Source of the DNA: a bacterium
GTDB lineage: Bacteria > Vulcanimicrobiota > Vulcanimicrobiia > Vulcanimicrobiales > Vulcanimicrobiaceae
Length of the DNA: 32,213 nucleotides
Direction: 5' to 3'
NCBI GenBank assembly: GCA_021794175.1
Contig: JAJYRI010000018.1
Span: 1-32,213, forward strand
This document shows, in pieces, positions 25,090 through 26,304 of the stretch; positions within the stretch are counted from its first letter, which is position 1; each line of letters opens with the position of its first letter. Both the position numbers and the translations under genes were made by a program. The notes beneath the pieces were generated by a model that made no database searches, had not been told where the DNA came from, and saw only the letters and a list, made by a program, of their open reading frames with translations.

Positions 25090-26304
25090 ATGAACGTCCG
25101 AGAGGAAGCGATGCAGCGACTGGAATCGCTCGATTTACGCAATTATGCCGAGCATGGTGCGTACCTCGACGGAAACGTGACGCACCTCTCCGCGTACATC
25201 CGGTTCGGGATCCTCTCGCTTGCCGAAGTACGCGACCGCGCGTTCGTCGTCGATTGCGACCATGCATCGCGGGCGCTATTTCTTCAGGCGCTTGCAAAGT
25301 ACGATTACGCTCGCCGCGTGCTTGCATTGCTCGGGGACGAGATTCATCTCGCTATCGAGCCCCTGAAGACCGGATGGGCGGTCGATTCGTACGAGCGTTC
25401 GCTCCCCGAAGATATTCGCGCTGCATCGACCGGGCTTTCTTGCATCGATGGCTTCGTCGCCGAATTGCGCGAGACGGGATATCTGCACGAGCGCGCGCGC
25501 CGGTGGCTTGCGGCATATATCGTCCATTGGCGCCGCATTGCGTGGGAGGCCGGGGCGAATTTCGTTCTCGAGTATGCAATCGACGGGGACCGCGCCGTCA
25601 ACGATCTTGCTTGGCAGTCGGTCGCGTCGAGTTTTTCCGACGCGCCCTATACGTTCGATCGCACCGAACTCGAACGGTATTCGCGGAGACGCTTTTGCAG
25701 TGCGTGCCCCAAACGCGTAGACGGGTGTCCTTTCACAGGTGAGAGCGAACGCATCGCCGAGAGGCTCTTTCCCGCGAGGGGCGACGAGAGCATCGTCGCG
25801 CCGGAATTGCGCGCAGCCGCCGATACGCGCGCACCTGCGGTGCAGCTCCCCGCGCGGCCGATCCTGTTGCATCACTTCGGCGCGATGCGTCCCACGCACC
25901 CGGCGGCGCGTCTCGCACCCGATGCTCCCGCCGTGTTCGTGAACGATGCCGCGCTCTACGAAGAAGCAGGCGTCAATCAGGTCGGGCGTACGATCGTCTA
26001 CGCAGCGCTCGGCTCGATGCGCGCGGAGTATCGCGCCGGCGATTTTGTCGAAGAGACACTCGCGTTTGCACGCTTGCACGAAGCGGACGGCATCCTCGTA
26101 ACGGAGAGCGCCGAGCCCGCGCTTCGCCGCCGATTTCGCGGGCTCGGCGATGCTCTTCCGGTCACGGTCGTTCCCGAGGATCCATTCGTGTCTCTCGAGG
26201 AGGCTCCCGATCTGCGTCGATTCTCGCGCTACTGGGCGCTCGCGCGTCGCTCGCTCAATGCGGTGTCGAGCGCGGCGAATAGCGTACCGCTATTTTCGAA
26301 CTGA
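25090..26304 (+). CDS. Photolyase/cryptochrome-like protein with apparently reversed domain order
   Basis: 404 residues. Residues 1-200 match the helical FAD-binding domain of photolyases: YLDGNVTHLSAYIRFGILS, a DYARRV block, STGLSCIDGFVAEL, TGYLHERARRWLAAYIVHW, then EYAIDGDRAVNDLAWQSVAS. The Asn four before Trp in NDLAW corresponds to the N5-facing Asn of E. coli photolyase, and Trps equivalent to W359 and W382 are present, but the W306 position looks like Ile. The usual N-terminal alpha/beta antenna domain is missing in front. After a Cys cluster (C203, C206, C213; CSACPKRVDGC), residues about 258-380 look like an alpha/beta domain (RPILLHHFGAMRP, APAVFVNDAALY, ADGILVTESAEPALRRRF) reminiscent of that antenna domain. 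ATG 25111, with AGAGGA upstream, is an alternative start. DNA repair or light sensing is inferred. Confidence 0.7.
   Translation: MNVREEAMQRLESLDLRNYAEHGAYLDGNVTHLSAYIRFGILSLAEVRDRAFVVDCDHASRALFLQALAKYDYARRVLALLGDEIHLAIEPLKTGWAVDSYERSLPEDIRAASTGLSCIDGFVAELRETGYLHERARRWLAAYIVHWRRIAWEAGANFVLEYAIDGDRAVNDLAWQSVASSFSDAPYTFDRTELERYSRRRFCSACPKRVDGCPFTGESERIAERLFPARGDESIVAPELRAAADTRAPAVQLPARPILLHHFGAMRPTHPAARLAPDAPAVFVNDAALYEEAGVNQVGRTIVYAALGSMRAEYRAGDFVEETLAFARLHEADGILVTESAEPALRRRFRGLGDALPVTVVPEDPFVSLEEAPDLRRFSRYWALARRSLNAVSSAANSVPLFSN

Follow-up and report, generated by a model that had tools for sequence, protein, structure and literature searches.

A conserved photolyase-like gene

We analyzed a 32,213-nucleotide stretch of DNA (the window) from a bacterium of the family Vulcanimicrobiaceae, and found a gene for a photolyase-like protein (the window protein) with the following main features.

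25090..26304, + strand: gene of 404 aa, almost certainly of the SPL/NewPHL class (FeS-type subgroup, lesion-pocket-less branch)
25144..25659, + strand: helical FAD-binding half (residues ~19-190), corresponding to the domain that canonical photolyases carry at their C-terminus (Pfam, profile match)
26229..26304, no strand assigned: 76-bp convergent overlap between the 3' ends of the SPL gene and the GH125 gene; a remnant persists in genome G065

Seven species of the genus carry the gene intact and in synteny; identity is 66-74% across all 404 residues, and pairwise dN/dS among congeners is about 0.1-0.25. Therefore, 25090-26304 is a real gene. It is flanked by a divergent gene for a tricorn-like S41 protease on one side and by a convergent gene for a GH125 mannosidase on the other, and nothing in this gene neighbourhood points to a role in light signalling. 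The N-terminus of the window protein can be aligned with those of all its congeners, and the intergenic sequence is also conserved. We found no antenna domain upstream of the ORF, where the divergent neighbour begins about 75 bp away.

Residues 107-189 of the single window protein match PF03441 (FAD_binding_7) in Pfam (E=4.8e-15), and the protein also matches photolyases in the PDB (E=1.5e-9). A profile built from the window protein and its full-length homologues aligned residues 18-190 with residues 227-407 of 1owl_A (E=2.6e-26). The FAD-domain landmarks named in the original prediction, HLSAYIRFG (32-40), STGLSCIDGF (113-122) and IDGDRAVNDLAW (164-175), are present as claimed. To place the functional residues, we aligned the protein with E. 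coli Phr (equivalences are given in mature E. coli Phr numbering).

25543..25545, + strand: W152, equivalent to E. coli W359, the middle electron-transfer Trp (alignment)
25600..25623, + strand: residues 171-178, with N171 (N378) and W175 (W382) kept and W384 replaced by S177 (alignment)

This alignment agrees with the claim that the photolyase Asn and two of the three electron-transfer Trps are kept (N378=N171, W382=W175, W359=W152) and that the outer one is lost, the residue aligned with W306 being V98. Another Trp, W96 (residues 95-98 lie at 25373-25384), occurs in this genus only, in both of its branches, two residues off the W306 position. It might act as a stand-in outer electron-transfer Trp.

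Reversed domain order

25852..26253, + strand: C-terminal alpha/beta domain, residues ~255-388, related by permutation to the antenna-type domain found at the N-terminus of photolyases (PF00875, hhalign)

The original prediction placed the FAD domain first and an antenna-like domain last, and offered as its alternative a short photolyase with a new domain fused to it. Pfam gave no match in the C-terminal half of the single window sequence, as this alternative would have it. Structure prediction is also compatible with it: the C-terminal domain predicted alone gave a weak model (pLDDT 52, pTM 0.51), for which Foldseek against the PDB returned generic alpha/beta matches, none at E<=0.001, with PhrB in 47th place. 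AlphaFold2 on the full protein, from a 3-sequence alignment, reached a pLDDT of 35, and viral contigs yielded no relatives for a deeper alignment.

However, the homologues argue for the antenna-like domain. PF00875, the photolyase N-terminal alpha/beta domain, was matched by Deinococcus C-terminal domains, and it was the best-supported Pfam family among isolated homologous C-terminal domains (matched by 4 of 9, the strongest at E=3e-5), followed by PF04244, the N-terminal domain of FeS-BCPs (3 of 9). Both are photolyase N-terminal domains, and since their matches lie under the Pfam gathering score where it is printed, they are only suggestive by themselves. In hhalign, the C-terminal domains of the family matched canonical antenna domains with a probability of 95.3% (P=2.4e-8) in an alignment that is colinear from its first strand onward, compared with 0.3% for the FAD half as a control, at most 4.3% in 100 column shuffles and 0.12% for the reversed alignment. 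Restricting the query to the window's genus gave 75.7%. The domain permutation is thus real at the sequence level, a result to which the structure models are too weak to contribute. We set aside a new, unrelated C-terminal domain, which this Pfam and hhalign profile evidence makes very improbable.

In Deinococcus sp. QL22, the plasmid NZ_CP097153.1 (L034:2890-4181) carries the FAD half and the antenna-like half as two genes with a four-base overlap, and the split falls exactly on the SPL domain boundary. These split genes, together with the profile match between the C-terminal and antenna domains, bear on the assembly of two-domain photolyases.

Putative iron-sulfur ligands

25441..25443, + strand: C118, putative first [4Fe-4S] ligand (TGLSC); invariant, aligned with the cysteine of the FeS-BCP motif T-x-M-x-C
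25696..25734, + strand: C203-x2-C206-x6-C213-PF, the other three putative [4Fe-4S] ligands (alignment)

C203, C206 and C213 lie where the original prediction put them. It read CxxCx6C as a linker; together with C118, a fourth putative ligand that it had not listed, the motif instead matches the four-Cys [4Fe-4S] ligand set of FeS-BCPs. All four cysteines are invariant in eleven homologues, and in profile alignments (probability 97.5-98.4%, with FeS-BCP FAD domains drawn from the same phylum) they and the CPF following them fall on the FeS-BCP cysteines. The literature on the class reports an iron-sulfur cluster for SPLs. We consider it very likely that the window protein holds a [4Fe-4S] cluster, and from its sequence we infer both its FAD and its Fe-S cofactor.

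The window protein shares with the FeS-BCP/prokaryotic (6-4) photolyases (PhrB type, PF04244) the four aligned cysteines, in the motifs T-x-x-x-C and CxxC...CPF. It differs from them in that they have the canonical domain order and CxxCx12C in place of CxxCx6C, and its FAD half is otherwise nearer to class I. No N-terminal PF04244 domain, as an FeS-BCP would have, was found in the window protein.

Membership in the SPL/NewPHL class

The inverted architecture is that of the SPL (short photolyase-like) or NewPHL class, whose founding papers are reportedly Emmerich et al. 2020 and Xu et al. 2021. The expectation that this architecture lay outside the known classes does not hold, since it has been published as NewPHL/SPL (PMC13274461, PMC9649867), one of the outcomes that the original prediction had itself named as refuting it. 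Class members have the FAD domain first, the C-terminal domain last and no N-terminal alpha/beta domain, together with a Trp dyad, a flavin-adjacent Asn and, in some members, a reported Fe-S cluster (PMC13274461, PMC9649867, PMC8948257, PMC12083526). A dyad in place of the triad is typical of the class (PMC8948257). We found the same layout in the window protein: its FAD domain is N-terminal, without a preceding antenna domain, the C-terminal domain follows the FAD half, and the absence of the outer Trp leaves a dyad.

In a maximum likelihood tree, in which the class was represented by Ruegeria, Asticcacaulis, Deinococcus and other relatives rather than by characterized NewPHL/SPL sequences, 25 short proteins split from 8 canonical ones (100/100). 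A branch without the cysteines unites alphaproteobacteria and some members of the phylum (99/98), and the branch with the window protein holds four-Cys proteins and one Persicobacter protein (96/91). The window protein thus differs from the alphaproteobacterial type in having the Cys set. Taken together, this data places the window protein in the SPL/NewPHL class almost beyond doubt.

Loss of the lesion pocket

25288..25299, + strand: residues 67-70, ALAK, where the E. coli E274-x-x-W277 motif is lost; ELAW in sister species (alignment)
25489..25503, + strand: residues 134-138, ERARR, against HNHxRM/L elsewhere; N341, H/R342 and M345 changed, FAD-side R137 kept (alignment)

In the E. coli enzyme, E274, W277, N341, M345 and W384 hold the flipped-out CPD. 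The equivalent residues are A67, K70, E134, R138 and S177 in the window protein, A/R/Q/V/S in L004 and A/Q/R/V/S in L005, the orthologues from two other species of the genus. The same five positions read E/W/N/L/W in the four other intact congeneric orthologues and E/W/N/M/W in relatives from Deinococcus, other families and alphaproteobacteria, the sole exception being the split QL22 protein, which has Q in place of the Glu. Thus, the CPD-contact residues are lost in the window protein, L004 and L005 only, and these belong to the class by descent, not by active site.

R226 is also replaced, by G23, in all three pocketless species. Of 27 residues that never vary among the other aligned SPL/NewPHLs, the pocketless branch has changed 9. 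These 9 include all six that we take to be lesion or DNA contacts by comparison with the photolyases of E. coli and A. nidulans and with PMC6126647 and PMC6378743 (R226, E274, W277, N341, position 342 and W384); M345 is changed as well. The probability of this by counting is p=2.8e-4, which is indicative only, because the contacts were assigned after the list was seen. In class II enzymes the CPD is contacted by a comparable set of residues, one Glu, one Asn, one Met and a pair of Trps (PMC6126647). The FAD residues, the Trp dyad and the Cys ligands are all kept in the pocketless branch.

The loss arose once on the tree (100/99). Sequencing error is ruled out as its cause, as three separate assemblies agree. 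In the literature searched, we found no description of pocket loss within one genus; the SPL/NewPHL class is known, and the pocketless branch is apparently new. Judging from these replacements, the window protein has in all likelihood lost CPD repair. The suggestion that its substrate may differ from those of known classes therefore stands in that the lesion-binding residues are gone, but the reason lies there and not in the domain architecture from which it had been proposed.

Compared with class I CPD photolyase (E. coli Phr), the window protein shares the homology of the FAD domain and N378, W382 and W359, and differs in its reversed order, in lacking W306 and in the loss of E274, W277, N341, M345 and W384. 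It differs from other SPL/NewPHL members in lacking CPD/DNA-contact residues that aligned members outside the genus almost always keep. Plant cryptochromes, which have the photolyase fold, likewise have the lesion-contact Trps replaced (Leu296 and Tyr402 in CRY1; PMC6378743). In contrast to them, the window protein is of independent origin, with reversed order, Fe-S cysteines and Asn rather than Asp at the flavin N5 position, and has no C-terminal signalling tail.

Selection, gene loss and redundancy

We compared substitution rates within the pocketless branch with those in sister pairs (YN00 and NG86 estimates of dN/dS, without a formal test). The whole-gene dN/dS in the pocketless branch was 0.17-0.22, and a value of about 0.2 indicates that the gene is still constrained. 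Specifically, the FAD half had a dN/dS of 0.18-0.30 in this branch, and sister pairs with a comparable dS gave 0.10-0.11. The value for the C-terminal domain was not raised, and the neighbouring GH125 gene stayed at 0.07-0.10 in both sets of pairs. The FAD half evolves faster, yet stays constrained.

Two genomes have lost the gene. In G065, which GH125 identity places in the pocketless branch, the SPL gene is deleted save for the tail that overlaps the convergent GH125 gene (L067:3214-3343). G064, outside the pocketless branch, carries an SPL pseudogene (L066:3484-4290). The deletion and the pseudogene together indicate that the gene is dispensable. The window's own genome also encodes a canonical class I photolyase, on contig C100, with all contact residues present, and redundancy with such an enzyme probably let the pocket go. 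A PF00875 fragment at a contig end of the same genome (G000:C4:8-229, L051) may be the beginning that the C100 photolyase lacks, or else a gene of its own.

Interpretation of the pocketless branch

The architecture, the homology, the residue losses and the purifying selection can be read directly from the compared sequences. The reading that we favour, with a probability of about 0.7, is that the window protein is an SPL in which CPD repair was lost and which turned into a cryptochrome-like flavin/Fe-S protein. It would consist of an FAD domain, four cysteines that probably bind a [4Fe-4S] cluster and a diverged antenna-type alpha/beta domain probably capping the FAD side. The contacts to lesion and DNA have been dismantled in this species and in two sister species, while the FAD pocket, the flavin-N5 Asn, the dyad and the Fe-S ligands remain. 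The protein most likely still binds FAD and the Fe-S cluster and would be photoreducible through W175/W152. CPDs would no longer be repaired by the SPL, their repair being left to the separate class I photolyase, and the SPL would then be a cryptochrome-like light or redox flavoprotein. The loss of nearly all lesion-gripping residues makes a job other than DNA repair probable. A cryptochrome-like role is nevertheless proposed tentatively, and a signalling or redox function is a guess.

The same losses bear on three other explanations. The protein could still be a regular CPD photolyase of the SPL/NewPHL class that works despite the substitutions, for instance on ssDNA with a remodelled pocket. 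This would account for the retention of the FAD half, of the Asn, of both dyad Trps and of the Cys ligands, and NewPHLs do repair CPDs in ssDNA (PMC13274461). We regard it as improbable: the two lesion-stacking Trps have become Lys/Arg/Gln and Ser, the Glu has become Ala, and N341 and M345 are changed too, whereas all aligned SPL/NewPHLs from outside the genus keep both Trps, the Asn and the Met, and all but QL22 keep the Glu. A photolyase-type enzyme with its pocket rebuilt for another substrate (another lesion, or not DNA) would fit A67, S177 and G23, which are identical in the three pocketless species. But the equivalents of W277, N341 and M345 are unconserved in the branch, whose members therefore show no new binding site in common, and this explanation also has little probability.

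Against the reading that we favour, the gene is dispensable, no neighbour hints at light signalling, and the lost positions differ inside the branch (K/R/Q, E/Q/R). Such variation is more in keeping with relaxed constraint than with the making of a new binding site. It would also be expected of a former photolyase in decay, redundant with the canonical enzyme present in the genome and with its gene on the way out; the deletion in G065, the pseudogene in G064 and the roughly doubled dN/dS of the FAD half point the same way. Against decay stand an intact ORF in three species with a dN/dS of about 0.2, conserved Fe-S cysteines, FAD residues and C-terminal domain, and changes clustered in the lesion and DNA contacts. 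We consider decay rather unlikely.

If a cryptochrome-like protein did arise by loss of CPD repair, the branch could be a separate photolyase-to-cryptochrome-like transition in the inverted-topology Fe-S class, within one genus and with intact sister orthologues at the same locus; we hold this as a possibility short of even odds. With intact orthologues kept at the same place in neighbouring species, it would be a small-scale natural experiment in the conversion of photolyases to flavoproteins without a repair function, and it would bear on the job of the Fe-S cluster once repair is gone. SPL/NewPHL proteins have been proposed to lie near the root of the photolyase/cryptochrome family.

Other photolyase-like genes

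Plasmid-borne alphaproteobacterial NewPHL-like genes (L028-L030, L035) adjoin or sit near a gene for an AarF/UbiB kinase, and the NewPHL-like gene of Asticcacaulis lies directly 3' of an NAD(P)/FAD oxidoreductase gene.

We also found a second photolyase-like paralogue, of canonical order, in the window's family (L002 at G000:C43:19177-21051, L022, L024, L025 and L044). In it E274 is changed to A/S, W277 to R/E/M/Q, N341 to P, M345 to A and N378 to A/S, and W384 is changed to S in the window's own genome. From its sequence, this paralogue looks like another non-repair or altered branch.
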